This document shows, piece after piece, positions 2,763-27,823 of a stretch of DNA of 29,515 nucleotides. A program made the translations under genes and the position numbers. Each line of letters starts with the position of its first letter. The first letter of the stretch is position 1. The notes beneath the pieces are model-generated. The model was not told the DNA's origin and ran no database searches. It saw only the letters and a list, made by a program, of their open reading frames with translations. This stretch comes from a virus, in IMG/VR virus record IMGVR_UViG_3300025168_000432, positions 1 through 29,515 of that record, one strand, 5' to 3'.

Positions 2763-3155
2763 ATGAAGAAACTCCTACTGACCGGCCTGTTGGCCGGTTT
2801 TTTTATGCCCGTTCACGCTCAACAGGCTCCAATTGGAATCAAACCTATGACGGTGCCATTCCAAATCTTTTGCGCGGATAGTTTTGAATTTTTAATGAAT
2901 GTGCTGGGAGCGGATTTCGGCGAAGCGCCTGTCGCAATGGGTTACCTGAAAGAAGGTGACGAACCTACGACGATGGTGATCTTTACAAATGAGAAGAACA
3001 CTCGGTCCACGATTGTTATAACCAAAAAAACAAAGTACGAGGAATCAGCGTGTATTGTCTGGAGCGGTGGTTCTCCTAGCGGAATGGCACTAAGCCTATC
3101 ACCAGACCCCCAATTTCCTCCAGAACCTGTTAAGAAAGATGGGGAAGAGATGTAA
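2763..3155 (+). CDS. Small secreted hypothetical protein
   Basis: A 130-residue protein with a textbook Sec signal peptide: MKK, a hydrophobic core about residues 4-15, then VHA before QQ, the likely cleavage point near residue 20. The mature part has two cysteines (about residues 38 and 97); the second lies in ACIVWSGG, which I associate with small exported proteins of marine podoviruses. Part of the signal peptide (TGLLAGFF) is encoded by an intrinsic-terminator hairpin, and an in-frame ATG (2805, Met15) follows its U-tract directly. ATG 2763 is preferred because only it gives a complete signal peptide. The stop overlaps the next start as TAATG. Function unknown; probably periplasmic, acting late in infection. 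Confidence 0.65.
   Translation: MKKLLLTGLLAGFFMPVHAQQAPIGIKPMTVPFQIFCADSFEFLMNVLGADFGEAPVAMGYLKEGDEPTTMVIFTNEKNTRSTIVITKKTKYEESACIVWSGGSPSGMALSLSPDPQFPPEPVKKDGEEM
2781..2804 (+). terminator. Intrinsic terminator inside a signal-peptide coding region
   Basis: Perfect 7-bp stem ACCGGCC/GGCCGGT with loop TGTT, then T7 ending at 2804. An in-frame ATG follows at once at 2805. The hairpin lies wholly within the coding sequence of the secreted protein that begins at 2763. Confidence 0.75.
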
Positions 3156-3367
3156 TGGAGCCATCCATGATGGTCGATGTTTTGATGGCCCTAGTTTTGT
3201 TTACAGGCGGGTGGGTTGTGAGAAGGATTTTCTCGCAGATTGATCGACTTCATGCGCGAGTTACTGATCTAGCGACGGTCACAGTTAGCCGACAGGAGCT
3301 AGACACTCATATAGACCGAATCATAAGCCGCATTGACACGCTTGAGCAACGCTTGCTGAGTAAATGA
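3155..3367 (+). CDS. Small membrane-anchored coiled-coil protein
   Basis: A 70-residue protein with an N-terminal transmembrane segment (about residues 5-22, LMALVLFTGGWVV) followed by a heptad-patterned helix (about 26-68, with regular Ile/Leu and charged residues). The ATG overlaps the previous stop (TAATG) and the stop overlaps the next start (ATGA), so it is translationally coupled. The layout resembles inner-membrane proteins of phage lysis cassettes such as holin-associated or i-spanin-like proteins. No partner outer-membrane lipoprotein is nested within it, so a specific role is not assigned. Confidence 0.6.
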   Translation: MEPSMMVDVLMALVLFTGGWVVRRIFSQIDRLHARVTDLATVTVSRQELDTHIDRIISRIDTLEQRLLSK

Positions 3368-3810
3368 ACGACGAGGACTCACTCAATTTATCGTCGAATA
3401 CGCGAGTGGGAATGCCGATTAGAAACTTGGCATTCATCGTGTCTGTCGCGGCGGGGGCCGTGGTCGGATACACGCAACTGGAAGGCCGTATCGGCGATTT
3501 AGAGACTGCCTATAAGCTAAGTTCAAGCGATCTCGTGGCCGTGACGAAATGGTCGGACGAGCTTCAACGAGGGGAGTTATCAACGGCGGCCACACAGGAG
3601 TTGTTCTTGCTCTTGGAGATGACCAGTAAGCAAGTCCAAACGCTTGAAGCAGACCTCGCCACTTTTGGGAAAGCAGTGTCCGTGAATGAACAACAAGATT
3701 TGAAAATTCAGTTCTTGCTTGACCGGGTTCGGGCAAGTGAGGCAAGGCTTGAGGCGTTGAGAGATTCGTTCTCGGACCTCAAGGCCAACGGAAATGGTGG
3801 GAGCCACTAA
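3364..3810 (+). CDS. Membrane-anchored coiled-coil protein
   Basis: A 148-residue protein with a short polar N-terminus, one transmembrane helix (about residues 20-37, NLAFIVSVAAGAVVGY) and a long, mostly helical remainder with Leu/Glu heptads (about 40-135). It ends in a Gly/Asn/Ser-rich tail. Its architecture repeats that of the gene before it in a longer form. The start overlaps the previous stop (ATGA) and its stop overlaps the next start (TAATG). Type II topology with a periplasmic coiled coil would fit an i-spanin-like or envelope-associated lysis role, but this is inference from architecture and position. Confidence 0.6.
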   Translation: MNDEDSLNLSSNTRVGMPIRNLAFIVSVAAGAVVGYTQLEGRIGDLETAYKLSSSDLVAVTKWSDELQRGELSTAATQELFLLLEMTSKQVQTLEADLATFGKAVSVNEQQDLKIQFLLDRVRASEARLEALRDSFSDLKANGNGGSH

Positions 3811-4064
3811 TGCAGACAGTATCAATGATTGTGCTGGTTCTTTATCTCAATGGGAGTCCTATTGAATTTCTCGGACACACCGAGAGGGCAGACGGCACTT
3901 GGGCGCGTATTACCGTAAGTGAATGTTTGTCCTACAAGAGAACTCTGAAACGTAACGGTTGGAAGGACAACGCTTCCAAAACAACACGATATTCGTGTGA
4001 GGAACGAACGGTAAAAGTCGGGCCGAACTACGAAGGGAAAGAAATCGTAAAGGGATTGAAATGA
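3810..4064 (+). CDS. Small hypothetical protein of the lysis-like cassette
   Basis: An 84-residue protein with a short hydrophobic N-terminal stretch (about residues 4-13, VSMIVLVLYL), then a basic, polar domain with two cysteines (about residues 39 and 62). The start overlaps the previous stop (TAATG); ATG 3825 is an alternative. The stop overlaps the next start (ATGA). It is a member of the same coupled set, but I do not recognise a family. The N-terminal run is too short for a clear signal peptide or full membrane span. Confidence 0.55.
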   Translation: MQTVSMIVLVLYLNGSPIEFLGHTERADGTWARITVSECLSYKRTLKRNGWKDNASKTTRYSCEERTVKVGPNYEGKEIVKGLK

Positions 4065-4276
4065 CAGTTTTCGACTCTACCCACGCCAAAGGAAATTTTT
4101 GGGGACACGCAAAACGGGCTGGATTTATTTCCGGCCTTTTTCTTGGGGCCGGGTTACTAGGACTCGTCCACATGATTTTCCCCTTTTTTCTGCCGGAGGT
4201 TATGACCTTGGCTAACAAGAGGATAAGCCAAGAGCTTGAAGTTGCGCTTTGTGCTTGCCCAGAGGAATGGAAATGA
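4061..4276 (+). CDS. Small membrane protein, holin candidate
   Basis: A 71-residue protein with a basic N-terminus (HAKRAG) and a long hydrophobic region at about residues 20-46 (GFISGLFLGAGLLGLV then IFPFFLP). The Gly-rich helix could span the inner membrane once or make a short hairpin, and the C-terminus is polar with two cysteines. Size, hydrophobicity and place among coupled envelope genes make it the best holin candidate here, but no holin family signature is recognised. Its stop overlaps the start of the next tiny gene (ATGA at 4273). Confidence 0.5.
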   Translation: MTVFDSTHAKGNFWGHAKRAGFISGLFLGAGLLGLVHMIFPFFLPEVMTLANKRISQELEVALCACPEEWK

Positions 4277-4368
4277 AGGAAAAATGGAAAACCCTAGATT
4301 ACAAGACAAAGAACCTCATCATCGCTGGCATCGTGGTATTTGTGTTTGCCTCTATGCTCTGGGGCTGA
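4273..4368 (+). CDS. 31-aa single-span membrane peptide
   Basis: The ATG overlaps the upstream stop as ATGA. It encodes 31 residues: a charged N-terminus (MKEKWKTLDYKTK) and one membrane span (NLIIAGIVVFVFASMLWG). A second reading frame opens 11 bases later at 4284 and runs on as a lipoprotein, so most of this gene is overlapped out of frame. Frame-overlapped membrane genes are typical of phage lysis cassettes. A pinholin or antiholin-like role is possible but unproved. Confidence 0.5.
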   Translation: MKEKWKTLDYKTKNLIIAGIVVFVFASMLWG

Positions 4369-4691
4369 TCGGATGCGGGACGATAAAGAAGGCGGGGATA
4401 GTCGCAACAGCGGCAGGGACGGGTGCGGTTGCGGGGAGTGTTGTCAGTGGGGGTGTGATTGCACCTATAGCGGGAGCCATGACAAGTGCCTTTGTGGCCG
4501 ATGTGGTGACGGAGGTGACGGATACGTCGCCTACTACTATGGGTAGTGGCTCATGCGCTCCTGATAACTTCTGGACCTTACTTGGGTCTATGACTGAGAT
4601 GGGGGGATGGCTTCTTATTCTAATAATATTAATTCCCATGGTGCTAGGATGGTTTCTTCCTGGTCCGTTGGAACGTAAAAAGAAAGGGTGA
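4284..4691 (+). CDS. Lipoprotein with C-terminal transmembrane helix (u-spanin candidate)
   Basis: A 135-residue protein. ATG 4284 is chosen because AAGGAA lies just upstream and a plausible lipoprotein signal follows: a basic N-region, hydrophobic core at about residues 19-30, and lipobox L28-I-G-C31. The mature N-terminal half is rich in Gly, Ala and Val (about 37-76), like a glycine-zipper segment. A second hydrophobic span, GGWLLILIILIPMVLGW, lies at about 107-123, followed by a basic tail ending RKKKG. An outer-membrane lipid anchor plus a C-terminal inner-membrane span, at about 130 residues, is the architecture of unimolecular spanins such as T1 gp11, which fuse inner and outer membranes at lysis. 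The role is inferred from architecture only. Confidence 0.55.
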   Translation: MENPRLQDKEPHHRWHRGICVCLYALGLIGCGTIKKAGIVATAAGTGAVAGSVVSGGVIAPIAGAMTSAFVADVVTEVTDTSPTTMGSGSCAPDNFWTLLGSMTEMGGWLLILIILIPMVLGWFLPGPLERKKKG

Positions 4692-5677
4692 GAAAAGCCC
4701 TACTTCTTCTTTTAAGTTGCTTCATTCCCCTCGCAGCAGCAGACATATTCGGTTCAAAAGCGAGCTTCCTTCTACACAACGATTTACGAAACTGGATGTC
4801 CTTGTCCTACCTGTCTACTAACGTAGACGATGTGTGGAGACAGCGCGTTGAAACTGCACTGATCGCGCAAGGCGACACCCATATTTATGTTTATTCCCAG
4901 AACGGAGATGACGGCATCGGGAATGTTTCTCCGCAACCAGACTGGGAAGTTCGTTTAGACCATCTAAATAACAGGGGTCTGCGTCCTGTCATGTGGCTGA
5001 TGGCAGATGACTCTCCAAACCTAGCTTCCAAGCCTCTCTCAGCCCACAAAGCGCACAACGCGGAGATGGTTCGTAGGTTTGACAACAAGGTGGATGGCTA
5101 CGTTATCGGTTTAGAGGTAGACGAGTATTGGTCTGCTGCACAAGTCAGAGAGATGGTCGCAGATCTCAAAGCCAAAACGAACAAGCCTGTAGGTGTCCAT
5201 CTTAGTCCCGGTGTTAAGCCAGGATATTTCGACAACGCCGACATCATCTACCTACAAACAGGTTTCGGCCTGAACGAAGCCCAGTTCCGGGCAAGGGTCA
5301 ACGAGGCTCTAACTCTCGGTAAGCCAGTAGTGGTAGCCGAATATCACATGGACTCTTCTTCAACTGTTGCAAAACGATACGGAGACATAGCTTGCGAAAT
5401 GGGAGCAGTGGGAACTGGCAACGGCAGAAACGTAGAGTTTTGTGGGCAACGCCAAGCCAAGAAACAGAAGTGGTATCAGAAATACGAAACAGAGATGGTA
5501 GTCGGTGGAGTGGCTATGGCTTCCCTTTTTCTTGTATCACGGTACGACTTACCTCTAACTCTCCGGGCTACAGAAGACTCCTACGAGATCGGGACGAAGA
5601 GGCGGTTTGGGAATCATTCAGTTGGCGTGACCTATAGCGAAAACCGGACTATGGCAACTTACTCATTTCAGTTTTAA
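4688..5677 (+). CDS. Secreted TIM-barrel-like protein, possible glycosidase
   Basis: A 329-residue protein starting with GTG that overlaps the previous stop (GTGA). Residues 1-18 form a signal peptide (MRKALLLLLS, then LAAA). Residues about 25-245 alternate β-strand and helix as in a (β/α)8 barrel. Acidic residues sit at strand ends: GLEVDEYW (E143, E146) and VVVAEYH (E218), a spacing reminiscent of acid/base and nucleophile glutamates in clan-A glycosidases. A hydrophobic span lies at about 269-284, and the C-terminal 35 residues look like β-hairpins ending in Phe (YSFQF), as in outer-membrane proteins. No other endolysin is visible in this cassette, so a wall-degrading role is possible. Both the fold and the role are inference. 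Confidence 0.4.
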   Translation: MRKALLLLLSCFIPLAAADIFGSKASFLLHNDLRNWMSLSYLSTNVDDVWRQRVETALIAQGDTHIYVYSQNGDDGIGNVSPQPDWEVRLDHLNNRGLRPVMWLMADDSPNLASKPLSAHKAHNAEMVRRFDNKVDGYVIGLEVDEYWSAAQVREMVADLKAKTNKPVGVHLSPGVKPGYFDNADIIYLQTGFGLNEAQFRARVNEALTLGKPVVVAEYHMDSSSTVAKRYGDIACEMGAVGTGNGRNVEFCGQRQAKKQKWYQKYETEMVVGGVAMASLFLVSRYDLPLTLRATEDSYEIGTKRRFGNHSVGVTYSENRTMATYSFQF

Positions 5678-5947: not shown

Positions 5948-5956
5948 AATTGCCCT

Positions 5957-6969: not shown

Positions 6970-6979
6970 TGCGGGGACA
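6960..6979 (+). promoter_or_regulatory. Paired GGGGACA element, left arm of attP
   Basis: GGGGACA (6960-6966), a 5-base gap plus C, then GGGGACA (6973-6979). It lies about 30 bp left of the tRNA-like core. A matching pair is on the right of the core and an inverted pair lies near the terminase. Probable integrase arm-type or regulatory binding site. Confidence 0.55.
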
Positions 6980-7007
6980 AAGCCGTAACTATATGATTTA
7001 TAAAGCC

Positions 7008-7031: not shown

Positions 7032-7124
7032 TTTACGTTAGTATTTACAGAGTAAGTCTCTAAGTACCTGAAAATAAAGGATACGATAGAGTAGGAAAGA
7101 GTATGTTGTTCCCTTATTTTGTTA

Positions 7125-7153: not shown

Positions 7154-7175
7154 AAAGCCTAACCGGAGGCTTACT

Positions 7176-9277: not shown

Positions 9278-9442
9278 TCATAAAAAAAGGGCGGGGCGAA
9301 CCCCGCCAAGTTCTGAAGTAGACGTAGTAAAAAGACTATCGGTTACACATTCTCCTTTTGGTTGTTGAACAAGAAGGTGGCCCATACCCCCCTCATAAAG
9401 CGGAGGAGGAGGACAGAGAGGGGCAGGGCCGTACTTAGTCAT
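9278..9442 (-). CDS. Possible 54-aa proline-rich peptide ending in the terminator
   Basis: An open frame of 54 residues with start ATG 9442 overlapping the end of the preceding gene (ATGACTAA). The N-terminus is proline-rich (PAPLCPPPPLYEGG). Its last codons (GGVRPALFL) are the terminator hairpin and U-tract, and its TGA overlaps ATG 9281. Coupling at both ends favours a real gene, but composition is odd and the ribosome-binding site weak. It may be only a frame open by chance. Confidence 0.3.
   Translation of the reverse strand: MTKYGPAPLCPPPPLYEGGMGHLLVQQPKGECVTDSLFTTSTSELGGVRPALFL
9282..9307 (-). terminator. Intrinsic terminator, leftward operon
   Basis: On the minus strand: stem GGCGGGG/CCCCGCC with loop TTCG, a C, then T7 ending at 9282. 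ATG 9281 follows immediately. The stem is made of the same two heptamers as the terminator at 10599-10624, in the opposite order. Confidence 0.8.
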
Positions 9443-9677
9443 CCCAAGGGTCTTTTTCTTGGGGCTTTTCGTTCGCTGGCTTAAAACCGCCTTCTTGTGG
9501 CGGTTCATATTTCAAACTCAAATATTTTTTCCCAGCCTTACTGGTTGTTTTCCACGCCGCGACTTTCCACATTGTTCCTTCGACGTTTGAATCACCTTTA
9601 AAGTGAGGAGCCTTATCGCTGGTTCTGTTTTCGTTGGGGAATAGTGCGCCGGTCATGTTTTTTGTTTCGTATGCCAT
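9435..9677 (-). CDS. DUF736-like small protein, possible ssDNA-binding accessory
   Basis: An 80-residue protein. ATG 9677 is chosen because AGGA lies seven bases upstream. MTGALFPN, SDKAPHFKG, then WKVAAWKTTSKAGKKYLSL follows the DUF736 pattern (a D-KAP segment, then W-KT---YLS). The C-terminus is disordered and acidic, ending KDPWDD, somewhat like the acidic tip of single-stranded DNA-binding proteins. It lies downstream of a RecB-like nuclease, which suggests a recombination or DNA-processing pair. The family match is by eye and the function is not established. Confidence 0.5.
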   Translation of the reverse strand: MAYETKNMTGALFPNENRTSDKAPHFKGDSNVEGTMWKVAAWKTTSKAGKKYLSLKYEPPQEGGFKPANEKPQEKDPWDD

Positions 9678-9742: not shown

Positions 9743-10597
9743 TCACCCTTGCTCCATGTGGTTTGAAAACTGTTTGCACCACTGGCTGACATCGCAGTAA
9801 TCCTCGCATCTCGTAAATCTTCCCTTTCGATGCTGTATAAAGTTGTCTGGTCCTCCGTACTGGTTGTAGGCATCTTGTATTTCCTTGTCTGATTTAAAAA
9901 GCTTGACCGCGCTCTTACGGCCTTTCTTCATCAACGCCCAGGTATCCTCTTTTTTCCACATTTCCTGATCTGTACAGGATGGGAAGTCTGAGAAATGCCT
10001 TTTTAAGCGGTTCCGGACGTACTGCTCAGTCGTGTCCATGTCCCACATTGGGATATCGACCGTGCAGATAGGAGCAACGGGGTAGTTATCTCCCGCTTTA
10101 CTCTTCTGCCAATCGCGTAAAAAGGTGATGATCTGGAGGGAGTCAATCGGGCTACCGCCTTCTTTCTCCCATAACCATCTGTATACATTTAACTGCCTAT
10201 CCCATTCGGGTTTCCCGTAAATGACACTCCATACGGAAGTGACCTTGTAATCCGCTAAAACCCGCTGGGTGACAACAGGAATTTTTTTGGTGTAGATAAG
10301 ATCTATCGCCCCGGAAAGAACCTTGTCATCAATCTTGGTAGAGACTCGTTGCTCACGAAGCATCCCTTCAACCTCAGGTATGCGTTCCAGCATGGCGTGA
10401 ACAGACTGCCCGAAGAACGCCCACACCATGTCGCTAACGTCTGCCTCCCGGTCTGGGTGCTTCTGTCTCAGGAAACGGACCTGTGGCGAGTCAATAAGCT
10501 GTGTAACGGATATATCTGCATCCCCTTTCGTGTAGGGGTCGTTCTCTATTGCAGAAACCAGAACTTCCGGTAAATTGTGTTTATTAGTCAGTTTCAT
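9743..10597 (-). CDS. RecB/Cas4-like PD-(D/E)XK exonuclease
   Basis: A 284-residue nuclease. ATG 10597 (MKLTNKHN) is preferred over the longer frame, whose first 28 residues are terminator and low-complexity sequence. RecB-family motifs are in order: H67 (GQSVHAML), D99 (SGAIDLIY), D116-Y-K118 (LADYKVT) and Q135-x3-Y139 (QLNVYRWL). A C-terminal cluster RCEDYCDVSQWCKQF gives three cysteines like the Fe-S motif of Cas4/AddB, though the fourth ligand is not certain. It probably trims DNA ends for phage recombination or replication. The start codon abuts the U-tract of a terminator, and the only G-rich sequence upstream is the hairpin arm. Confidence 0.8.
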   Translation of the reverse strand: MKLTNKHNLPEVLVSAIENDPYTKGDADISVTQLIDSPQVRFLRQKHPDREADVSDMVWAFFGQSVHAMLERIPEVEGMLREQRVSTKIDDKVLSGAIDLIYTKKIPVVTQRVLADYKVTSVWSVIYGKPEWDRQLNVYRWLWEKEGGSPIDSLQIITFLRDWQKSKAGDNYPVAPICTVDIPMWDMDTTEQYVRNRLKRHFSDFPSCTDQEMWKKEDTWALMKKGRKSAVKLFKSDKEIQDAYNQYGGPDNFIQHRKGRFTRCEDYCDVSQWCKQFSNHMEQG

Positions 10598-10871
10598 TAA
10601 AAAACCCCCCGCCCGTAGGCGGGGTAATAGTTGGAGGAGGAGATGTCGGCGTATTAGCCCCCGCCGACAGGGTAGTTTCATAAATCTTTAGTAAGTCTTT
10701 GGTGTCTATACCTCTTCTGTCCGCCACTTCCTGTATGCTATATCGGACAGCATAGGCATAAAAATCCTGTAAATCACCATTCAAACCCGACCGCATCCAA
10801 TATTCGATGTAGTCGTTGGTACACTGGTCAACCTCCCAAGTGGCTTTATCAAGGGCATCGCTATACTCCAC
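10584..10871 (-). CDS. Small hypothetical protein ending through a terminator
   Basis: About 95 residues; GTG 10871 (or TTG 10874) lies just after AGGAGG. The N-terminal 70 residues are acidic and helical (VEYSDALDKATWEVDQC, then YAYAVRYSIQEVADRRGI). The C-terminus is proline/threonine-rich (SPPPTITPPTGGG). The coding sequence reads through the terminator hairpin (encoding GGGFF) and overlaps the nuclease start. It overlaps the upstream gene by about 11 bases. No family recognised. Confidence 0.5.
   Translation of the reverse strand: MEYSDALDKATWEVDQCTNDYIEYWMRSGLNGDLQDFYAYAVRYSIQEVADRRGIDTKDLLKIYETTLSAGANTPTSPPPTITPPTGGGFFNETD
10599..10624 (-). terminator. Intrinsic terminator abutting the nuclease start
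   Basis: On the minus strand: CCCCGCC, loop TACG, GGCGGGG, GG, T6, A, then ATG at 10597. It lies inside the 3' end of the upstream gene. The 3' arm (GGCGGGGGG) is the only G-rich sequence upstream of the nuclease ATG at ribosome-binding distance. Confidence 0.8.
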
Positions 10872-11178
10872 CAACCCTCCTAGAAGCCTCTAAACTTCGC
10901 CAGTGTTCCCATCTAAGCCTAGCAGTCTCTCTTTTTGCTGAAAGGATCTCGGATTCGTTGAAGGCTTTTAGATATTGCCTCTTGGCGTAAAGAACGTCTT
11001 TATCGACTTCTGAAGCCTGTTTCCGGGTTTCCCCTGTTCCTGTTTCGTTTAAGAATGCCTGGGCCATACGTTTCTTAATTAAAAATGCTTTCGCCTTGGC
11101 TGCTGTAATCGCGTTAGCGAACTCTTCGTCGGTTTCAGACAGGAAATCAAGGTGTTTTTCTGCTTCGTACTGGTTCAC
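10861..11178 (-). CDS. Helical hypothetical phage protein
   Basis: A 105-residue, highly charged and almost wholly helical protein (EAEKHLDFLSETDEEFANAI, then KAKAFLIKKRMAQAFL). It starts with GTG overlapping the previous stop (GTGA). Its position between a DUF1364-like gene and the nuclease gene suggests a DNA-metabolism accessory role. I know similar all-helical proteins next to phage recombination genes but cannot name a family with confidence. Confidence 0.55.
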   Translation of the reverse strand: MNQYEAEKHLDFLSETDEEFANAITAAKAKAFLIKKRMAQAFLNETGTGETRKQASEVDKDVLYAKRQYLKAFNESEILSAKRETARLRWEHWRSLEASRRVGGV

Positions 11179-15612: not shown

Positions 15613-16116
15613 TTGGAAATACTTAAATTGCTCCTTCCACAATGTTCAGACTTGTCACGGGTCCGAACTGGTGGAAAGCCGGAAATAACAAGCGAGGACG
15701 TATCCGCTGCCCTCGCACGGTTGCCTGTAGAAGCGAGTCTCTACGGGCGTTATTTAATCCTAGACGATCAGATAGCTCGGGATTTGTTAAACCGTATGCT
15801 GGTGGAGGTCTGTTTAAATTTGGGATTTGAAGGCGATTTAAGACGGCTCACGCAGCTTGTCAATTTAGGACTTTCCGAATCACACGGGCGAAACAAATGC
15901 CCACAATGTAAGGGCATCGGCAAACTAGGAATTCAAAAGTGCGAACACTGCCACGGGTCCGGGTTAAAAAGACCCACGGAGGCATCCCGCGCTCAAGCGT
16001 TGGGAATTGCACGGGGTAAGTTTAAAAAAACTTGGCAACACAGATACGAACAGATCGTTTTACCCGTTATTACCTATTTAGAAATGGAGCTTTCCGAACT
16101 GCGCCGATATTTGTAG
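15613..16116 (+). CDS. Q-like late antitermination protein
   Basis: A 167-residue protein. Residues 96-117 (CPQCKGIGKLGIQKCEHCHG) form a zinc finger of two CxxC pairs with following Gly, as in Q antiterminators of λ and 82 type. The flanks are helical (YGRYLILDDQIARDLL, WQHRYEQIVLPVITYLE). The start is TTG 15613: TATAGG plus a T-run serves as ribosome-binding site and spacer. It is the last gene of the early operon, directly followed by a gene-free leader and an intrinsic terminator, which is the λ Q-pR'-tR' order. Q loads onto RNA polymerase at its late promoter and makes it ignore terminators. A DnaJ-type zinc-finger protein is the alternative. Confidence 0.7.
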   Translation: MEILKLLLPQCSDLSRVRTGGKPEITSEDVSAALARLPVEASLYGRYLILDDQIARDLLNRMLVEVCLNLGFEGDLRRLTQLVNLGLSESHGRNKCPQCKGIGKLGIQKCEHCHGSGLKRPTEASRAQALGIARGKFKKTWQHRYEQIVLPVITYLEMELSELRRYL

Positions 16117-16177
16117 CCGTGTGTAGTTGTTAGGTCACGGATATGATAAATTATTAGTACGATGAGAAAGTTGAGAT
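16117..16177 (+). promoter_or_regulatory. Candidate late promoter/leader region (pR'-like)
   Basis: A 61-base AT-rich gap between the Q-like gene and the terminator. It holds TTGTTA (16127-16132) and TATGAT (16142-16147) but no well-spaced -35/-10 pair. By analogy with λ this should hold the Q-utilisation site and a late promoter with an early pause. Identified by position only. Confidence 0.35.
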
Positions 16178-16201
16178 AACCCGCTAACTGCGGGTTTTTT
16201 T
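16178..16201 (+). terminator. Intrinsic terminator after the Q-like gene (tR'-like)
   Basis: Stem AACCCGC/GCGGGTT with loop TAACT and T7 ending at 16201. A GTG start follows at 16202. The position fits the first late terminator over which Q would act. Confidence 0.8.
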
Positions 16202-16423
16202 GTGCCTCCAAGATTTCTGGATGCAATTACGGGCGATACATTTGACCTTGACATAGACCCGACGCTGGCGAACGAATACGGCTACAAGTTAGTGAAGGGT
16301 TCTCGCACGGCTAATATCACGGACAGTGAGTTTTACGGCGCACAAGATCCGGCGTGGCTGGAGCGGGAGAGATTAGAAAAAGAAGGAACCTTTTTTCACC
16401 ACATAAAAAAAAGACCCGGTTAG
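16202..16423 (+). CDS. Small hypothetical protein starting on a terminator U-tract
   Basis: A 73-residue acidic protein (FLDAITGDTFDLDIDPTLAN, then a Lys/Glu-rich end). GTG 16202 follows the U-tract, with GCGGG of the hairpin arm seven bases upstream as the only ribosome-binding candidate. Its TAG stop lies in the loop of the oppositely oriented terminator at 16405-16429. If real, it would be made only by RNA polymerase that passes the Q-controlled terminator. No family recognised. Confidence 0.5.
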   Translation: MPPRFLDAITGDTFDLDIDPTLANEYGYKLVKGSRTANITDSEFYGAQDPAWLERERLEKEGTFFHHIKKRPG

Positions 16424-16429
16424 ACCGGG
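16405..16429 (-). terminator. Terminator of the minus-strand accessory operon
   Basis: On the minus strand: CCCGGT-CTA-ACCGGG followed by TC and T8. It closes the leftward operon 16472-19546. The plus-strand gene's stop codon is its loop. Confidence 0.8.
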
Positions 16430-16471
16430 CCTTAGTGTGACTTTAAAACTTTCGTTTCAGACTTCGCCGCA

Positions 16472-16762
16472 TTAATCCTCCGATTCGTAGCGGCTTAAAT
16501 ATTCACTGATTTCATCATCCAGCGTTTTTAGGATTGATTTATCCCAATCGGGATTAAATGGGCTTAACTTTTCCGGGATATTCGTCCACGGTTCGCCCCA
16601 TATATCCCCGCCTTTAGGGTTATGTATACAATCAATGTCGTTTTCGTTAGGGTCTTTGACAAAAAGCCAGTTTCCCCTTAATCGACACCGGCCCGGACCT
16701 ATAGGACGGCCCCATGCTTCGGAAATCCAATAAGCGGCTTGCTTAACGGTAAGTTTACTCAT
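16472..16762 (-). CDS. Hypothetical protein, last gene of accessory operon
   Basis: A 96-residue protein; ATG 16762 (MSKLTVKQAAYW) is chosen because GGAG stands upstream and it overlaps the preceding stop (ATGA). N-terminal helix of helix-turn-helix type length (LTVKQAAYWISEAWGRPIG), then LRGNWLFVKDPNENDIDCI and an acidic C-terminal helix. The first helices resemble small DNA-binding or excisionase-type proteins, but the match is too weak to name. Confidence 0.5.
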   Translation of the reverse strand: MSKLTVKQAAYWISEAWGRPIGPGRCRLRGNWLFVKDPNENDIDCIHNPKGGDIWGEPWTNIPEKLSPFNPDWDKSILKTLDDEISEYLSRYESED

Positions 16763-16875
16763 TCTTCTAGCTCCGGGAAAAGTGTAATTATAAGCCGCTC
16801 CAATACAGCGCAAAATGCGAACAGCGCAAGAGAAGGAATGGCGACTAACAGCAGCACTATTAAATTGCTAATCAT
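16759..16875 (-). CDS. 38-aa single-span membrane peptide
   Basis: ATG 16875 after CGAGG opens a 38-residue frame: MISNLIVLLLVAIPSLALFA, then FCAVLERLIITLFPELEE. One strong transmembrane helix (about residues 4-24) and a short amphipathic tail. The stop overlaps the next start (ATGA). The ribosome-binding site and coupling support it. A role in altering the host membrane is possible but unknown. Confidence 0.55.
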   Translation of the reverse strand: MISNLIVLLLVAIPSLALFAFCAVLERLIITLFPELEE

Positions 16876-16889
16876 TTGACATACCTCGT

Positions 16890-17045
16890 TTAATGAATCC
16901 GACGCTGGGGGCGTGACAATGCCCGTTGTGCTTTTCGTTCCAATTCCTTATGGAGGATCACAGACCGGTATTGCGGGCACTTGACCGAATAAGGGGCTTC
17001 CAGGATTTCTTCTAGAATCCGGCGTAGTTCTTTTTCACGGCTCAT
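16890..17045 (-). CDS. 51-aa basic helical protein
   Basis: ATG 17045 follows AAAGGAGACACC, a strong ribosome-binding site, which is why the longer upstream frame is rejected. The product is a charged helix (MSREKELRRILEEILEAP) and a basic end (RALSRPQRRIH). No family recognised. It lies 10 bases past the stop of the gene before it and is part of the accessory operon. Confidence 0.55.
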   Translation of the reverse strand: MSREKELRRILEEILEAPYSVKCPQYRSVILHKELERKAQRALSRPQRRIH

Positions 17046-17055
17046 GGTGTCTCCT

Positions 17056-17478
17056 TTAGTCAACGGGAACGCAGACTTCGTATGGTTGGGAACGCATACA
17101 TCTATCGGGTTTGTAATCCGGCGCGGGAACAAGACGAACAACCGTGCCACGGGGATCTCCTTGCCAATGAATACCGGCAATCCCGTCTATCGTCTCGACT
17201 AGTTTCTCTATCCGATTTCTTGCGCGGGTATCGCTTTTCTCTAAATGAGCGTGAAACCTTTCTTGCATCTCGGCTTCTTGTTCGGAGGTTAAGCTTCTCA
17301 GATAGCTTTGCGCGCTCGGTTCGTAATAGATGGGATGCCCGTTGCACTCCGCGACTGCGTTGTTTTGCACGGTCTGAGAATGTCGCGCAATTAAAGAACA
17401 AGTTTCGATATCGGCTGCAACGCCACGACTCGCGAGTGATTCGGCTAGTTGATAGCCTTTTAGTGTTTTTTTAGCCAT
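17056..17478 (-). CDS. Phage hypothetical protein with QGDPRG motif
   Basis: A 140-residue protein. The N-terminal half is helical and the centre reads IAGIHWQGDPRGTVVRLV (about residues 98-115). The GDPRG turn between strands is one I have seen in many short phage proteins of unknown function. ATG 17478 follows CCGGAGATAAACA, part of the operon's repeated ribosome-binding pattern. The C-terminus has two cysteines. Function unknown. Confidence 0.6.
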   Translation of the reverse strand: MAKKTLKGYQLAESLASRGVAADIETCSLIARHSQTVQNNAVAECNGHPIYYEPSAQSYLRSLTSEQEAEMQERFHAHLEKSDTRARNRIEKLVETIDGIAGIHWQGDPRGTVVRLVPAPDYKPDRCMRSQPYEVCVPVD

Positions 17479-17481
17479 TGT

Positions 17482-17673
17482 TTATCTCCGGCACTCTTCA
17501 TAACCATCGAACCATGGACCATTAAGCCGGGTTATGCGTTTAAGGTGTGGACGGGTACAAGTGCTAGAGGATGTTTCCGGGTCGTTACAGTGGGCACGGG
17601 CCTCTTTTAGGGTTAGGCCCGTTTTAATGGTGCGATTGCCCCCGTTAAAATGCATCCGTATTATTTTGTACAT
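17482..17673 (-). CDS. Conserved 63-aa phage protein (TIKTGLTL family)
   Basis: A 63-residue protein: YKIIRMHFNGGNRTIKTGLT, then EARAHCNDPETSSSTC and GPWFDGYEE. This strongly conserved small family is well known from actinobacteriophages and other tailed phages. Its function is not known; composition suggests a small two-strand plus helix fold. The ATG follows GATAGCGGAGAAACACC, one copy of the operon's repeated ribosome-binding segment. Seeing the family in what looks like a Gram-negative phage suggests wide exchange of early genes. Confidence 0.8.
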   Translation of the reverse strand: MYKIIRMHFNGGNRTIKTGLTLKEARAHCNDPETSSSTCTRPHLKRITRLNGPWFDGYEECRR

Positions 17674-17709
17674 GGTGTTTCTCCGCTATCAGGTCGGAAT
17701 TGACCCGCA

Positions 17710-17732
17710 TTAGCCCGCTCTGACCGGGCTAA
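17710..17732. terminator. Intergenic hairpin in the accessory operon
   Basis: TTAGCCCG-CTCTGAC-CGGGCTAA, an 8-bp stem between the β-clamp-like gene and the 63-aa gene. Neither strand has a U-tract after it, so it may be an RNA-stability or attenuating hairpin instead of a terminator. Confidence 0.4.
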
Positions 17733-17738
17733 AACTGA

Positions 17739-18272
17739 TCAACTGCGGCAGGGCATCAAAATACCTATGTTTTCGCTGTTGTTCGTCACCTCGATTCCAG
17801 GATGATCCGAGAAGGTTAATTTGACCTTTCCGGCTTTACCGTCCTTCGATAACGCCGCCGCAAGATCATGTAATAGCTGGGCGTCGATCGTTGTCGTGAA
17901 GGTTTCTTTGCTATCAGAGATATTGTTAAGAATCTCGGCGGCATCTGGAAACTTGGTTTCTGGCCGCGGGAAACTCGGGCCGTGAGGTATAGCTAAACTA
18001 CCGTTTGCGATAACTTGCGCTATCGGTTTAGGTGTAGCTCCATTACGGTTTTTTGCAACCGCTACCGCGGCGGTAATACTGTCCTGCGATATCGGACCGC
18101 TGGTGTCGCTATCATCTGTCACGACCTTTAAACGGGCAGCAATATGTCCGTTAGTAGCCCACAAATAACCTCTGTCCGCGTCCAGTTCGCAGTGGTGCAG
18201 CTGTACCCGGTGGTCTGATGGTTTTGAACAGACTTTTTTAAGAGTTTTTTCAGCTTTGTTGGGAATAATCAT
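17739..18272 (-). CDS. β-sliding-clamp-like domain protein
   Basis: A 177-residue protein. It reads YLWATNGHIAARLKV (as in the DnaN strand where clamp proteins have ATDGHRLA), then ISQDSITAAVAVAK. The C-terminus is VKLTFSDHPGIEVTNNSENIG and ends ILMPCRS, close to the DnaN terminus (VMPMRL). It is about half the size of DnaN (around 370 residues) and would supply one to two clamp domains. It might form a phage clamp, a clamp decoy or an inhibitor of host replication. The clamp relation is by motif only. It follows a repeated ribosome-binding segment (AATAGCGGAGAGAGAAA). Confidence 0.55.
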   Translation of the reverse strand: MIIPNKAEKTLKKVCSKPSDHRVQLHHCELDADRGYLWATNGHIAARLKVVTDDSDTSGPISQDSITAAVAVAKNRNGATPKPIAQVIANGSLAIPHGPSFPRPETKFPDAAEILNNISDSKETFTTTIDAQLLHDLAAALSKDGKAGKVKLTFSDHPGIEVTNNSENIGILMPCRS

Positions 18273-18287
18273 TTTCTCTCTCCGCTA

Positions 18288-18512
18288 TTAAAATGTGTAT
18301 TGGGCCGCTACTCCGGCCGCTTTTTTGTATCCGTTCCAAATTGCATTGGCGCGAAAATTTGAAATGCGGTATGCCTTCTCCGCAGCTGCGCCAGTAATGC
18401 CGTAATCGTCAGACAGTGAATCCAACGCCGCTTGCTTTTCGTTACCGCAAAAATCGCGCACGTTGATAATTTGATCCGTGATATCTGCAATCACGTTTTC
18501 TTCTATGTACAT
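18288..18512 (-). CDS. Small hypothetical protein of accessory operon
   Basis: A 74-residue, mostly helical protein (MYIEENVIADITDQI, then RISNFRANAIWNGYKKAAG). ATG 18512 follows AATAGCGGAGAAACAAT, the best copy of the repeated ribosome-binding segment. Its stop codon overlaps the equivalent segment of the next gene. No family recognised. A promoter/operator region lies just upstream (18513-18632). Confidence 0.55.
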   Translation of the reverse strand: MYIEENVIADITDQIINVRDFCGNEKQAALDSLSDDYGITGAAAEKAYRISNFRANAIWNGYKKAAGVAAQYTF

Positions 18513-18632
18513 ATTGTTTCTCCGCTATTCGGGCCTTATTGCCCGCGCTTGCCTACTCAGAGAATAGGCAAAAACGGACATTTATAAACGTCTCTAATTG
18601 GTTAATAAAACGGACAGTCAAAACGTAAAAAT
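18513..18632 (-). promoter_or_regulatory. Intergenic control region of accessory operon
   Basis: 120 gene-free bases. They hold AACGGACAGTC (18609-18619), repeated exactly at 19613-19623, and AACGGACA (18573-18580). On the minus strand, TTGACT and a TATAAA element (near 18579-18584) suggest a second internal promoter. Two small hairpins (GCCTA/TAGGC and GGGC/GCCC) follow before the ribosome-binding site. Confidence 0.4.
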
Positions 18633-18917
18633 CTATTCAGCTATCCAAAAATGTTTAGCGATGAGACCATCTGGATATTCGCCGCAGCTTGCGTTATCCC
18701 GCGCTGAATCTAGCAATTCTGAAATACCGGATTCGCTATCTTCTCGGCGGGAAACAAAAACATCTGCGCCGTTATAAAAATCGTAATCGACCAGATCCCC
18801 GGTTTTACTTTCAAAAGCCGCTTCTATATGTGTGACATTTTCCGGCACGGCTAAACAGGACCAAGATTTTCTAAAATCGTCGATAAAGGTTTTTTCTATC
18901 GTAACGTGTTTAATCAT
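18633..18917 (-). CDS. Hypothetical protein of accessory operon
   Basis: A 94-residue acidic protein (TIEKTFIDDFRKSWSCLAVP, VDYDFYNGADVFVSRREDSE). The start overlaps the upstream stop (ATGA). The mix of β-strands and acidic surface recalls small phage inhibitors or DNA mimics, but no family is recognised and none is claimed. Confidence 0.55.
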   Translation of the reverse strand: MIKHVTIEKTFIDDFRKSWSCLAVPENVTHIEAAFESKTGDLVDYDFYNGADVFVSRREDSESGISELLDSARDNASCGEYPDGLIAKHFWIAE

Positions 18918-19546
18918 TGCGCCGCCTCTATGGTGATCTGCGTGTTTTGATAAGTGACAATGATATTTTCAGCAGCCGGAAACACTTCGCCAATCTTTTT
19001 GCTATTTATATCTATAACCGGATGCAGCTTACCGCCTTTTGTTTTCTTGCTTACTTTGGTTTTGCCCTCAGGGTTTAAACGCAAAACGATCATTCCGTTA
19101 GATACTGCATTTACCCCCTGCACATAATCGGCGGTATATGTCGCGCCGGGAAGAAACCCAGCAGCAGACAAATATTCAGAGTGATCTAACCAGATACGTC
19201 TGTTGCCTCTATGTGTACCCAGCTTGAGGGTCTGAGTAGCTATAGCCATAGCCTCCATTTCAGATTCTATAAATTCGGCTAGTTGCTCGGAGTTATCCCA
19301 CCACCGGTAATCAGCACCGATTTGTTGTTTAACTGCGCCTTCGCAATCAGACCGATAATCGCGATAGATTTTGGTGACTTGAACGAACTGTTTAATAGAT
19401 GTAATTTCTTCTTTGAGGATGAAGTCGACTAAATCGGAGAAGTCGTAGGCTTCGACGTAGTAATCAAAGCCGGCGTTATAGACTTTTGGGATTTCGCAAA
19501 ACTTCGTGATCTCGGACGCCAGCATTTTGTAATCTGTATCGGTCAT
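18914..19546 (-). CDS. First gene of accessory operon, possible AbrB/SymE-like C-terminal domain
   Basis: A 210-residue protein; ATG 19546 (MTDTDYK) follows ACGGAGAGAGAGAAA, so the longer frame is rejected. The N-terminal half (1-115) is helical and acidic. The C-terminal 90 residues read RIWLDHSEYLSAAGFLPGAT, then GKTKVSKKTKGGKLHPVIDI and end ITIEAAQ. This is a swapped-hairpin β pattern as in SymE/AbrB-type domains, which in some phage proteins sit in front of DNA methyltransferases. It could bind DNA or RNA and control the operon. Family placement is tentative. Confidence 0.5.
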   Translation of the reverse strand: MTDTDYKMLASEITKFCEIPKVYNAGFDYYVEAYDFSDLVDFILKEEITSIKQFVQVTKIYRDYRSDCEGAVKQQIGADYRWWDNSEQLAEFIESEMEAMAIATQTLKLGTHRGNRRIWLDHSEYLSAAGFLPGATYTADYVQGVNAVSNGMIVLRLNPEGKTKVSKKTKGGKLHPVIDINSKKIGEVFPAAENIIVTYQNTQITIEAAQ

Positions 19547-19612
19547 TTTCTCTCTCTCCGTGTTGTTTACAGAAGGCGCCAAAATAGCAGAAAAAGACCG
19601 ATTGCACAATAT

Positions 19613-19623: not shown

Positions 19624-20111
19624 TAATTGCATCAGGATTGCTAATTTTTTCGCCCGGAAAGATAAGGTTAAATCTAGATCAAACTAAGCTTCTAGCCTTC
19701 TATATATGTACAGGTATAGAGAGAGACATATAAGGACAGAGAACCGTCTATGGGGTACTTACAGTTTCGTCATATCCTGCGAGTTATGCGCCCTAATGAA
19801 GGTAAGCAGGAAACGTGTCCTGTGAAATTATGTCCTTCACACGCACACACACGGTCTTCCCAAGCTCGATAGTGCAGCTTATACACCTTGCTCCAGGAAT
19901 AAGTAATCCCTGATGGCTCCTCTACGGGGAGTCACAGACACTGGGATATAAGGATAAACAGGGCATTGTCCCCGTAAATGTCCCCGGTAGGGGTCCGATT
20001 CGTGCATCCGGGCAGGGGGGGGCGACCCCCTCGCGTAAAAATAAATACACACATATGTCCTGCCCACTCACTGGGGGGGGAAAATACCCTTTATAAGTGA
20101 TTGCTAATTTT
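19624..20111. other. Gene-free region before terminase: candidate packaging/late-control site
   Basis: Nearly 490 bases with no supportable gene. It contains TGTCCT at 19816, 19831 and 20056, its reverse at 19733, an inverted GGGGACA pair (19967-19985), two G8 tracts (20015-20022, 20073-20080) and a GGGGG-CGA-CCCCC hairpin (20018-20030). Location just ahead of the small terminase gene is usual for cos or pac. A late promoter for the head genes should also lie here, but none is clear. Confidence 0.45.
19967..19985 (-). promoter_or_regulatory. Third paired GGGGACA element
   Basis: On the minus strand: GGGGACA, TTTA, C, GGGGACA. Same spacing as the integrase-promoter copy (7131-7149), but about 12.8 kb away and inverted, before the terminase. 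Confidence 0.55.
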
Positions 20112-23213: not shown

Positions 23214-23225
23214 TGGAAACCGCGT

Positions 23226-25124: not shown

Positions 25125-25168
25125 TGGCATACAAATACAAAAAACCAAAACCCCCAAAACGGAAATAA
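25124..25168 (+). CDS. Possible 14-aa basic peptide
   Basis: ATG 25124 overlaps the portal stop (TAATG) and encodes MAYKYKKPKPPKRK. Very short lysine/proline peptides at this spot occur in other podoviruses, as far as I recall. It may be a real peptide or just a re-initiation relay to the next gene. Confidence 0.35.
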   Translation: MAYKYKKPKPPKRK

Positions 25169-25170
25169 AA

Positions 25171-25350
25171 ATGGGTGCAAAACAGAAACATTACTTGCCT
25201 GATGGCATTTTGTTTAAAGGCAAGTCTCATAAGATGGCAAACGGAGTTTTGCACTCTGGGGTAACGCATACTGCGTCTAGCAAAGTGTTAAAGCACTATG
25301 GACAGCTATCCAAAAAAGCACAGGCAAAAGCTAGGACTCAGTGGTCTTGA
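25171..25350 (+). CDS. 59-aa conserved small protein after portal
   Basis: ATG 25171 to TGA 25350, 59 residues: KHYLPDGILFKGKSHKMANG, LHSGVTHTASSKVL, and a basic end with AQAKARTQWS. Basic and Gly/His-rich; the pattern (KHY-PDG-L-KG--HKM-NG-LHSG-THT) is a small conserved protein found next to portal genes in podoviruses, probably virion- or DNA-associated. Its stop overlaps the next start. Confidence 0.65.
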   Translation: MGAKQKHYLPDGILFKGKSHKMANGVLHSGVTHTASSKVLKHYGQLSKKAQAKARTQWS

Positions 25351-25595
25351 ACGAAGAACAACGCGCGAATAACGCCAAACGGATTCTTGACGATCCCCTA
25401 GTTCAAGAAGCGTTTGACACCCTACGACAAGAATTTTTGGACAGGTGGGAAAACTCACCGGCCCAGGATACGGATGCAAGGGAAACCTTGTGGCTAGGAT
25501 TAAAGATCCTTTCACGGCTTCAAGTCCATTTTGAATCACTTATCGCAAGTGGTCAGATGGCTAAAGCACAAAGAGATTCTAAGATCCTATTTTAG
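25341..25595 (+). CDS. Small helical head-region protein
   Basis: An 84-residue protein (82 from the alternative TTG 25347, which overlaps the previous stop as TTGA). Fully helical, with LVQEAFDTLRQEFLDRWENS, ARETLWLGLKILSRLQVHFE. This resembles a small conserved protein preceding the scaffold gene in marine podoviruses. It may help head assembly. Its stop is 25 bases before a terminator that abuts the scaffold start. Confidence 0.6.
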   Translation: MVLNEEQRANNAKRILDDPLVQEAFDTLRQEFLDRWENSPAQDTDARETLWLGLKILSRLQVHFESLIASGQMAKAQRDSKILF

Positions 25596-25619
25596 AAAAC
25601 TACCTACAAGGATGTAGGG

Positions 25620-25642
25620 GAGGGCCATTCGGCCCTCTTTTT
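25620..25642 (+). terminator. Intrinsic terminator abutting the scaffold start
   Basis: GAGGGCC-ATTC-GGCCCTC, T5, C, then ATG 25644. The only purine-rich ribosome-binding candidate (GGGGAGGG) overlaps the 5' arm of the stem, so folding would hide it or bring it close to the ATG. Confidence 0.75.
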
Positions 25643-25643
25643 C

Positions 25644-26624
25644 ATGGAGCTAATTGTGGACACTCAAGCAGAACCCACAGGCACGATTGCGGAAGCGCAA
25701 ACGGCCATTCTCGGACTAATGGACTCGCAAGAAACCCCGGAAGTTGAGGAGGTCGAACCTTCAGAAACGGAAATCCCGTTTGAAGCGTCAGAGGAAACTG
25801 AGGAAGAAGGCGAAGAGCTTGAAGCCGAAGAAGAATTTGAGGATGAAGTTACCGAAGACGAGGAAGCAGAATTCCTATTTGAAGTTGATGGACAGGAACT
25901 CTCTGCTGACGAACTCAGGAAAGGCTATTTACGCCAAAGTGACTACACCAAAAAAACGCAGTCTCTTTCAGAACAACGCAAGGAGATGGAGAATCTTACC
26001 CAACAGTATGGTTCTCAACTCCAACAGATTCAGGCAGAGAGACAACAGTACATCCAGCACTTGCAAGCCCTTTCCGAAAATCAAGACACTACGAAGTTTA
26101 ATATTGATTGGGAAAGGTTACGCTTGGAAGATCCCCTAGAGTACGTCACAAAAAGGCAAGAGGTTCAGGAAGCCAAAGAAAAGGCTGAAGAATTCAAGAC
26201 TAGAGCGAAACAAGCTAACGCAAGGACAGCGGCTGAAGAAGAACAGAAGTGGGCCAAGGTAGTAGAGGATGAGAAGATAAAACTTCTCGCTGCTCTACCG
26301 GAATGGGGCGAACCAGACTCCCAGAGGCAGCTTGCAACGGAACTCAGATCGTATGCCCAAACCCAAGGCTATCAAGAACTTGAAATCGACTCTCTTGCTG
26401 ATCACCGTTCGTTTCTGATGTTACGCAAGGCCATGCTGTACGACCAGATGCAGAACGCGAACCCGAAAGCAAAAAAGCTCAAAGGTAAACCCAAAGTGAT
26501 CCGTGCCGGAAAAGGGGCATCCAGAACGCGAGAGCAAAGAGATGCACTTAAAACCAAACGTAACCAACTTAAAAACACGGGCCACGTCAGAGATGCGGCC
26601 AAGGTTTTTGAGGATTTCATTTAG
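25644..26624 (+). CDS. Scaffolding protein
   Basis: A 326-residue protein with typical scaffold make-up: a highly acidic region (residues about 33-80, mostly Glu), GQELSADELRKGYLRQSDYT (about 89-108), a long coiled coil with Gln/Glu/Lys (about 110-200), and a basic C-terminus (KAKKLKGKPKVIRAGKGASR, then TREQRDALKTKRNQLK) suited to bind the capsid's inner face. It directly precedes the capsid gene. Needed in many copies, so the terminator at its start is striking. Confidence 0.85.
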   Translation: MELIVDTQAEPTGTIAEAQTAILGLMDSQETPEVEEVEPSETEIPFEASEETEEEGEELEAEEEFEDEVTEDEEAEFLFEVDGQELSADELRKGYLRQSDYTKKTQSLSEQRKEMENLTQQYGSQLQQIQAERQQYIQHLQALSENQDTTKFNIDWERLRLEDPLEYVTKRQEVQEAKEKAEEFKTRAKQANARTAAEEEQKWAKVVEDEKIKLLAALPEWGEPDSQRQLATELRSYAQTQGYQELEIDSLADHRSFLMLRKAMLYDQMQNANPKAKKLKGKPKVIRAGKGASRTREQRDALKTKRNQLKNTGHVRDAAKVFEDFI

Positions 26625-26634
26625 GAGTTAAATA

Positions 26635-27603
26635 ATGGCAGTTCCAACAAATACCCGTGAGGTACATAGTGCCATCGGGGTACGCGAGAACTTGGCAAAT
26701 GTTATCTACGACATTTCGCCTACCACGACTCCATTTCTGACAGGATGTGGCCGCGACTCTGCGGATAATGTTCTGTTTGAATGGCAGACTGATACTCTCG
26801 CAGCAGCCGCCGCGAATCGTCACGCTGAAGGTGATGACTCAACGGCAGCAGCTATCGTAGAAACCACCCGCCTGACGAACCTAACGCAAATTTCGAAAGA
26901 AACTGTGTCAATCTCAGGAACCGCAGAATCGGTCAATTTCGCCGGAAAATCCCGGAGTGAAGTTGCCTATCATATGGCCCGTGCCGCGCAGACACTAAAG
27001 CGTGATATGGAAAAGATGTTGATGGATAACGTCGCCAAAGCTGCTGGTTCTTCTGGTTCTGCTCGTTCAACCGCTGGTCTAGGGTCTTGGGTGGCTTCCA
27101 ACTATCACTCGCTAGGTACGTCTTCGGTAGGTACGGCAAGTGCCGGAACCGGAACTAACACCGCGACTGCTGCTGGTACTCCCGGCGCAATCACGGAAGC
27201 CGGTATGAAAACGGTAATCCGCGAGTGTTTCGATAATGGTGGTGAGCCTGACACCATTATGGTCGGCGCTTTTAACAAACAGGCAATCTCTGATCTCACA
27301 CAGTCAGTTTCGTCACTGAGTACCGCTGCCGATAAGGTAGCCCCGGCTCATGTTGTAGCTTCTGTTGATGTCTATGTTTCGGATTTTGGAACCATGAAAA
27401 TTGTTCCCAATCGTTTTCAACGAGCGGGTGACTGTTGGTTCTTGGATTTCGACTACTGGACAGTCTGCTACTTGCGTGATTTCAAAACTGAAGATCTTGC
27501 AAAAACGGGTGATAGCCAGAAAAAGCATATCCTCGCTGAGTACGGTCTGAAGTCGAAAAACCAGAAAGCCTCCGGTTTCCTGGCTGACCTCACTACTTCC
27601 TAA
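26635..27603 (+). CDS. Major capsid protein (SU10-like, DUF5309 type)
   Basis: A 322-residue capsid protein. AVPTNTREVHSAIGVRENLA, VIYDISPTTTPFL and EWQTDTLA---NRHAEGDD are the beginning of the SU10/DUF5309 capsid family. The later IVPNRFQRAGDCWFLDFDYW and LRDFKTEDLAKTGDSQKKHI (capsid core P-domain and C-terminal strand) fit the same family. An HK97 fold is expected. TAGGAG six bases before ATG 26635 is the best ribosome-binding site in the window, as expected for the most abundant virion protein. Two terminators follow directly. Confidence 0.92.
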   Translation: MAVPTNTREVHSAIGVRENLANVIYDISPTTTPFLTGCGRDSADNVLFEWQTDTLAAAAANRHAEGDDSTAAAIVETTRLTNLTQISKETVSISGTAESVNFAGKSRSEVAYHMARAAQTLKRDMEKMLMDNVAKAAGSSGSARSTAGLGSWVASNYHSLGTSSVGTASAGTGTNTATAAGTPGAITEAGMKTVIRECFDNGGEPDTIMVGAFNKQAISDLTQSVSSLSTAADKVAPAHVVASVDVYVSDFGTMKIVPNRFQRAGDCWFLDFDYWTVCYLRDFKTEDLAKTGDSQKKHILAEYGLKSKNQKASGFLADLTTS

Positions 27604-27622
27604 TAGGAAGTAAAACCGGGAG

Positions 27623-27648
27623 AGGGGGCTTCGGCCCCCTTTTCTTTT
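27623..27648 (+). terminator. Intrinsic terminator after the capsid gene
   Basis: AGGGGGC-TTCG-GCCCCCT followed by TTTCTTTT. Very stable UUCG-type hairpin; the normal stop for capsid mRNA and protection for its 3' end. Confidence 0.85.
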
Positions 27649-27650
27649 GC

Positions 27651-27673
27651 GCCCCCATTAGGGGGCTTTTTTT
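27651..27673 (+). terminator. Second capsid terminator, running into the next start
   Basis: GCCCCC-ATTA-GGGGGC, then T7, then ATG 27674. Its arms can also pair with those of the first hairpin. AGGGGG of the 3' arm lies at ribosome-binding distance from the ATG. Confidence 0.8.
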
Positions 27674-27823
27674 ATGGCTAAGAAAAAGAAATCTAAAGAC
27701 TTCCAAAAGGTTCTTGAAAAGGAATTTGAAAAAGCGGAACAAGAGCGCAAGGAACGTGAACTCTGGACAAAACCTGGCCCCCGTGAAGTGGGCGGTATGA
27801 AACGGTACTGGACAAATGGATAG
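27674..27823 (+). CDS. 49-aa basic helical protein
   Basis: ATG 27674 to TAG 27823, 49 residues: MAKKKKSKDFQKVLEKEFEK, then EQERKERELWTKPGPREVGG. Lysine-rich, then an amphipathic helix. It overlaps the next gene by 8 bases (ATGGATAG). The ATG directly follows the T-tract of a terminator. A minor head or DNA-binding protein is possible; no family known to me. Confidence 0.55.
   Translation: MAKKKKSKDFQKVLEKEFEKAEQERKERELWTKPGPREVGGMKRYWTNG

Follow-up and report, generated by a model that had tools for sequence, protein, structure and literature searches.

Predicted intrinsic terminators abutting start codons and lying within a signal peptide in a phage sequence, with a putative Q-type controller

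The window and its terminators

The window analysed here is the whole IMG/VR record IMGVR_UViG_3300025168_000432, listed as linear and 29,515 bases long, and the subject is a set of GC-rich hairpins with T-runs, predicted intrinsic terminators that in several places run with almost no spacing into the next start codon or fall inside coding sequence. All findings come from sequence analysis, and terminator function is predicted throughout. The window encodes terminase, portal, scaffold and capsid proteins and, judged from its genes, belongs to a lambda-like podovirus that can be called temperate because an integrase and a CI-like repressor are also encoded; it is probably a fragment of the phage genome. 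No close isolate was found, capsid identity staying below 60% across phage records, and scanning genome contigs with the capsid alignment yielded no host. Related capsids occur in 72 IMG/VR loci, about 20 of them close (82–100% identity) and most others near 65%; for one near relative, the 39,874-base contig G001 (loci L164 and L165), the entire sequence was read.

A terminator scanner reported nine strong terminators in the window, whereas 20 dinucleotide shuffles averaged 0.6. Since its thresholds were set once the sites were already known, the comparisons with other phages given below weigh more than the shuffles. At the strong sites the GC-rich stem abuts the T-run directly, and among relatives the stem is retained despite sequence change, with few independent changes. 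An ATG or GTG (together RTG) lies within 1 nucleotide of the T-run at seven of the nine, and TTTTTATG occurs 7 times where 1.75 are expected. A preliminary description of this DNA had listed six hairpins with T-tracts and suggested both the count against shuffled controls and a check in close relatives; all six were found, and close relatives keep the terminators. The window hairpins thus look like real intrinsic terminators conserved across relatives.

Junctions at which a T-run reaches a start codon

The preliminary description held that the T-tract runs into a start codon six times. With start-codon status judged from orthologs, this stands at four sites (9281, 10597, 16202 and 27674) but not at the other two: ATG 2805 is an internal methionine of a signal peptide whose gene starts at 2763, and ATG 25644, proposed as the scaffold start, is out of frame in three relatives. 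The features at three of the four junctions are as follows.

9282..9307, minus strand: terminator GGCGGGG-TTCG-CCCCGCC followed by C and T7, abutting ATG 9281; hairpin identical in L114, L074 and L115
9099..9281, minus strand: gene of 60 residues starting at the T-run end, with no Shine-Dalgarno (SD) sequence
10599..10624, minus strand: terminator CCCCGCC-TACG-GGCGGGG followed by GG and T6, which also encodes ITPPTGGGFF of the upstream open reading frame (ORF)
9743..10597, minus strand: exonuclease gene (phrog_2139), starting 1 nucleotide past the T-run, inside the upstream ORF
10584..10874 (start approximate), minus strand: upstream ORF, its C-terminus encoded by the hairpin and its stop past ATG 10597
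26635..27603, plus strand: major capsid protein
27624..27648, plus strand: first post-capsid hairpin, GGGGGC(TTCG)GCCCCC, then TTTTCTTTT
27651..27673, plus strand: second post-capsid terminator, GCCCCC-ATTA-GGGGGC and T7, abutting ATG 27674
27674..27823, plus strand: lysine-rich gene of 49 residues; its ATG is kept in relatives 7 nucleotides past the hairpin

At 9281 the hairpin, T-run and ATG are kept in three relatives whose downstream proteins are 51–85% identical, the hairpin being unchanged even next to the protein of 51% identity. A 76-residue ORF at 9278–9508 shows an in-frame 3-nucleotide gap between the window and L114. The arrangement at 10597 recurs at the L074 ortholog, and in both sequences the hairpin encodes the C-terminus of the upstream ORF; synonymous recoding produces such a hairpin here in 2% of trials, more often than in the signal peptide described below. 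Behind the capsid gene, the length, loop and sequence of the 27651 hairpin vary in close relatives, and the 7 nucleotides to the ATG are constant in all. UUCG tetraloops occur in the hairpins at 27624–27639 and 9290–9307. In L021 and its relatives the capsid gene is followed by a hairpin GTGGGGG...CCCCCAC that lacks a T-tract and stands about 8 nucleotides before the next ATG, with differing downstream genes; pair counting on this distant-group hairpin showed no covariation.

A Q-like gene, a promoter-like element and a terminator

The features around the fourth junction, at 16202, are as follows.

15613..16116, plus strand: Q-like antitermination protein of 167 residues (phrog_127, weak match)
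16144..16152, plus strand: extended -10 promoter-like element TGATAAATT (TGCTACATT in L113, TGGTATATT in G001)
16178..16201, plus strand: tR'-like terminator behind the Q-like gene and the promoter-like element, abutting GTG 16202
16202..16423, plus strand: ORF of 73 residues, with GTG at the T-run end (TTG in G001); its C-terminal codons are complementary to the terminator that comes next
16405..16433, minus strand: convergent terminator of a minus-strand block, with T8 and then ATG TGG TGA and no gene; its complement encodes the KKRPG in which the 16202 ORF ends

The window, L113 and G001 share TGNTANATT about 50 nucleotides before the T-run end, followed by a terminator which in G001 differs in sequence. 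The GTG at 16202 is kept in L113 and aligned with TTG in G001, and the end of the ORF is the complement of the convergent terminator in both the window and G001. This convergent terminator, read from 16433 to 16405 on the minus strand, was absent from the earlier list of six and is kept in L166. The -35 region of the promoter-like element is poor in the window, and a second -10-like stretch is visible. A five-codon ORF, MRKLR (MKKLR in L113), lies at 16162–16179 directly 5' of the 16178 hairpin and was considered as a possible attenuator leader peptide. In the neighbouring minus-strand block, several genes between 17056 and 18512 have, equally far from their ATG, an RBS-like (ribosome-binding-site-like) string GCGGAGA (TAGCGGAGA in three).

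The match of the 167-residue protein to phrog_127 stands at 1.6e-7 and that of its counterpart in G001 at 5.7e-6; the G001 protein also matches PF03589 (Antiterm), at 0.011. These matches are weak, and the region matched includes a DnaJ-type zinc finger. A search for further Q relatives returned G001's own contig only. By sequence the assignment as Q is therefore weak, a lead backed by context, and that context makes it plausible that the Q-like gene, the extended -10 element and the terminator at 16178–16201 form a Q/pR'/tR'-like module, their order being kept in three sequences. The preliminary description had invoked an antiterminated polymerase; the Q-like gene and the conserved promoter-like element upstream of one terminator supply a candidate agent for it and strengthen that idea, the Q match itself being weak.

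A predicted terminator encoded in a signal peptide

2763..3155, plus strand: gene of a secreted protein of 130 residues, start 2763, signal peptide MKKLLLTGLLAGFFMPVHA; its position varies among related phages
2780..2804, plus strand: intrinsic terminator within the signal peptide, stem 2780–2799 and T-run to 2804

The hairpin begins 17 nucleotides inside the gene, whose product has no family match. The same arrangement occurs in G001 (AALVGGFFM) and in the L171 group (AALIGGFFS), at other genome positions, and is missing from lineages with different signal peptides. A stand-alone leader of 20 codons, MKIKALALTAALMGGFFMSI, followed by a stop, carries the same terminator at a second place in G001 (L164:16115–16176) and is apparently a remnant of the secreted-protein gene. 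All 8 stem pairs form in four distinct sequences and 2 are changed on both sides, most clearly where the codons GGC...GCC of the window become GCC...GGC in G001. Random synonymous recoding reaches the observed terminator score in 6/5000, 4/5000 and 3/5000 trials (about 0.1%), and the observed strength of the truncated G001 leader in 0.8%.

The encoding of a predicted terminator in a signal peptide is clearly unusual, the most unusual feature of the window, and it is kept in related phages. Among the open-licence papers searched, none was found on terminators within signal peptides or abutting start codons. The dual coding proposed earlier holds here (2780–2804) and where the ORF preceding 10597 ends; a further overlap, on the opposite strand, involves the last codons of the 16202 ORF. 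Tentatively, and with somewhat less than even odds, the secreted-protein gene might be a mobile phage gene with its own transcriptional gate in the secretion leader, silent unless an antiterminated polymerase passes, with ~25 nucleotides encoding the terminator as well as the signal peptide's hydrophobic core. The gene bearing this putative gate is found in the window, G001 and the L171 group. If this were true, a terminator and a signal peptide sharing one stretch of sequence would be coevolving, both preserved by paired changes.

The leader of the scaffold gene

25603..25618, plus strand: hairpin CCTACAAGGATGTAGG with the CsrA core UACAAGGAUGU, as defined by systematic evolution of ligands by exponential enrichment (SELEX), in its loop
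25619..25642, plus strand: terminator-like hairpin GGAGGGCC-ATTC-GGCCCTCT with a T-run, then CATGGAG
25646..25649, plus strand: scaffold SD GGAG, overlapping a second A-N-GGA motif (AUGGA)
25656..26624, plus strand: head scaffolding protein, corrected start GTG

In L012, L013 and L014 one extra base between the ATG and the GTG puts ATG 25644 out of frame, and GTG 25656, with GGAG 6 nucleotides upstream, is kept in all (VDTQ, compare MADTQ in distant relatives). The preliminary description placed the ribosome-binding purines in the 5' arm of the hairpin; the scaffold gene has its own SD. A split ribosome site, in which an SD 5' of the hairpin is brought near by folding, was considered at 25644 and at the distant post-capsid junctions, and was dropped at 25644 because GTG 25656 has that SD. 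In the 25619 hairpin one pair is changed on both sides in three sequences.

The loop of the preceding hairpin matches 11 of the 12 positions of the CsrA SELEX core consensus RUACARGGAUGU (PMC7652899) and is present in 19 close-relative loci. The core is kept in all close relatives that hold the leader stretch and was not found in the distant group; AUGGAG, with the second GGA at the SD, is conserved in all. The stem at 25603–25618 is invariant, so that pair counts are uninformative for it. The sequence suggests a putative CsrA-consensus leader, by which the phage would read a host regulator.

Proposed control of the late genes

The reading we favour, with a probability of roughly 0.64, is that these are ordinary intrinsic terminators with near-zero spacing at gene boundaries, and that Q-type read-through controls the plus-strand late genes. 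Where genes sit end to end, as in the four cases above, the RTG behind the T-run would have been taken over as the start of the next gene; elsewhere the terminator would fall inside coding sequence, in a signal peptide or in C-termini. The plus-strand genes past ~16150 (scaffold, capsid, post-capsid) would be mostly off before antitermination, until the Q-like protein modifies polymerase that has started from the promoter following its gene, which then reads through every terminator. Across the contig gap, the secreted-protein gene and what follows it would probably be under the same control. At 10597, ribosomes on the overlapping upstream ORF may melt the hairpin, suppressing termination and exposing its G-rich 3' arm, so that translation of the exonuclease could start. 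Such a scheme suggests how the late genes stay silent until needed, and through the Q-like module late control could be tested in a group of uncultured phages; the module and the CsrA-like leader are both open to simple reporter and binding tests.

Several observations weigh against this reading. The phrog_127 profile also matches 11 of 14 control genomes, probably via DnaJ-type zinc fingers, and the 167-residue protein has no real relative in PDB and no match among phage records. The plus-strand late genes start at 20097, past a 3-kb minus-strand block (16472–19609), and continuity of the late operon is taken from G001 because the contig is a fragment. A terminator directly 5' of scaffold and capsid genes, which are normally highly expressed, is odd, and the post-capsid hairpin may not terminate in distant relatives, as it has no T-tract there. 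The paired changes are few as well: 68 of 500 shuffles reach the value observed for the signal-peptide stem, and 37 of 500 that for the scaffold hairpin.

Alternative explanations

Punctuation may be all there is, compact packing combined with a general RTG-rich terminator tail and neither antitermination nor a regulatory role. In other phages, RTG lies within 1 nucleotide of the T-run at 8 of 46 strong terminators, and at 10/53 and 7/33 in two sets with T-runs of at least six (17/86 together). A class picked by stem sequence alone, in a scan that ignored context and gave a sample of at least 75 distinct sites, has it at 31 of 75 (41%) among the matches listed. Mostly there is no gene at these positions: among the same matches, 22 of the 31 RTGs open fewer than 30 codons, and the 9 with ORFs of at least 50 codons come close to the control rate of 34% for RTGs further downstream. 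In this larger sample, RTG in a terminator tail did not hold up as a marker of gene starts, and the earlier view of RTG after a T-run as a special signal is not supported. RTG there is largely a property of the tail (about 20% of strong phage terminators), recruited as a start where genes are tightly packed; if so, many apparent starts behind phage terminators would be tail sequence, which bears on gene calling. In sampled loci L209–L288, terminators of the type GCCGCC-N6-GGCGGT7 often have RTG or CG plus YCTG behind them, and a conserved TCTG 3' of terminator hairpins has already been described (PMC8355165). The window's 7/9 is nonetheless higher than 17/86 (Fisher p = 0.0008); over 31/75 the excess is less clear (p = 0.04). 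The order of Q-like gene, promoter-like element and terminator is kept in three sequences, and paired changes maintain the terminator in the signal peptide, so that an account in terms of punctuation only appears unlikely.

A model that generalises the preliminary description makes the hairpin 3' arm bind the ribosome, with the U-tract as spacer; one element would then control termination and translation, and serve as code, at each junction. Two sites lend themselves to this. Among 41 starts tested, 10597 has the strongest anti-SD pairing (-10.1 kcal/mol) and 27674 the joint second (-9.3), in both cases from the 3' arm, and these G-rich arms persist in close relatives. The claim that nothing else G-rich lies at ribosome-binding distance is right for these two but is weak at 16202 (-3.2), whose G001 counterpart has no SD; 9281 has none either (+1.5), its 3' arm being CCCCGCC in relatives too, and 25644 is no start. 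A 3'-arm ribosome site is thus plausible at 10597 and 27674 only, and as a general rule very improbable.

That the hairpins are mainly RNA-processing or 3'-end-stabilising elements rather than terminators is likewise very doubtful: in distant relatives the hairpin behind the capsid gene is conserved beside a start codon yet lacks a T-tract, and UUCG loops cap the hairpins at 9307–9290 and 27624–27639, but members of the close group have retained long T-runs.

Overall, these are ordinary elements in unusually tight packing, with a plausible Q-type controller, the signal-peptide terminator as the single clearly unusual feature, and CsrA as a side lead.

Comparison with known systems

The closest parallel is the Q/pR'/tR' region of lambda (PF03589, PF06323, PF06530; PMC7171158), where, as in the window, a promoter-like element and then an intrinsic terminator come immediately behind an antiterminator-like gene in a phage with integrase and repressor. 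Q loads near the promoter (PMC7171158), and the order of elements in the window fits this. Unlike lambda, the window has a weak Q match, a terminator ~20 nucleotides past the presumed transcription start, a minus-strand block before the late genes, and a next gene that starts at the T-run. In this spacing it resembles AlpA antitermination in Pseudomonas aeruginosa, in which AlpA-controlled promoters are followed by intrinsic terminators 26 and 54 nucleotides after the transcription start site, ahead of the regulated genes (PMC7969949); the likeness is one of promoter–terminator order, not of AlpA homology or binding element.

The scaffold leader recalls the CsrA leader of the glgC type, with a UACARGGAUGU core in an upstream hairpin loop and a GGA overlapping the SD (PMC7652899). 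It differs in belonging to a phage scaffold gene and in the terminator-like hairpin between the two motifs, and the comparison is one of leader sequence. Finally, ribosomes are known to suppress terminators within ~27 nucleotides of a stop codon, while those located in a gene's first 100 bp can remain functional (PMC4824070). The 10599–10624 hairpin, translated in the upstream ORF, and the 2780 hairpin, 17 nucleotides into its gene, resemble those coding-sequence terminators with ribosome-dependent efficiency; unlike them, the window's are natural and conserved, and one lies inside a signal peptide.

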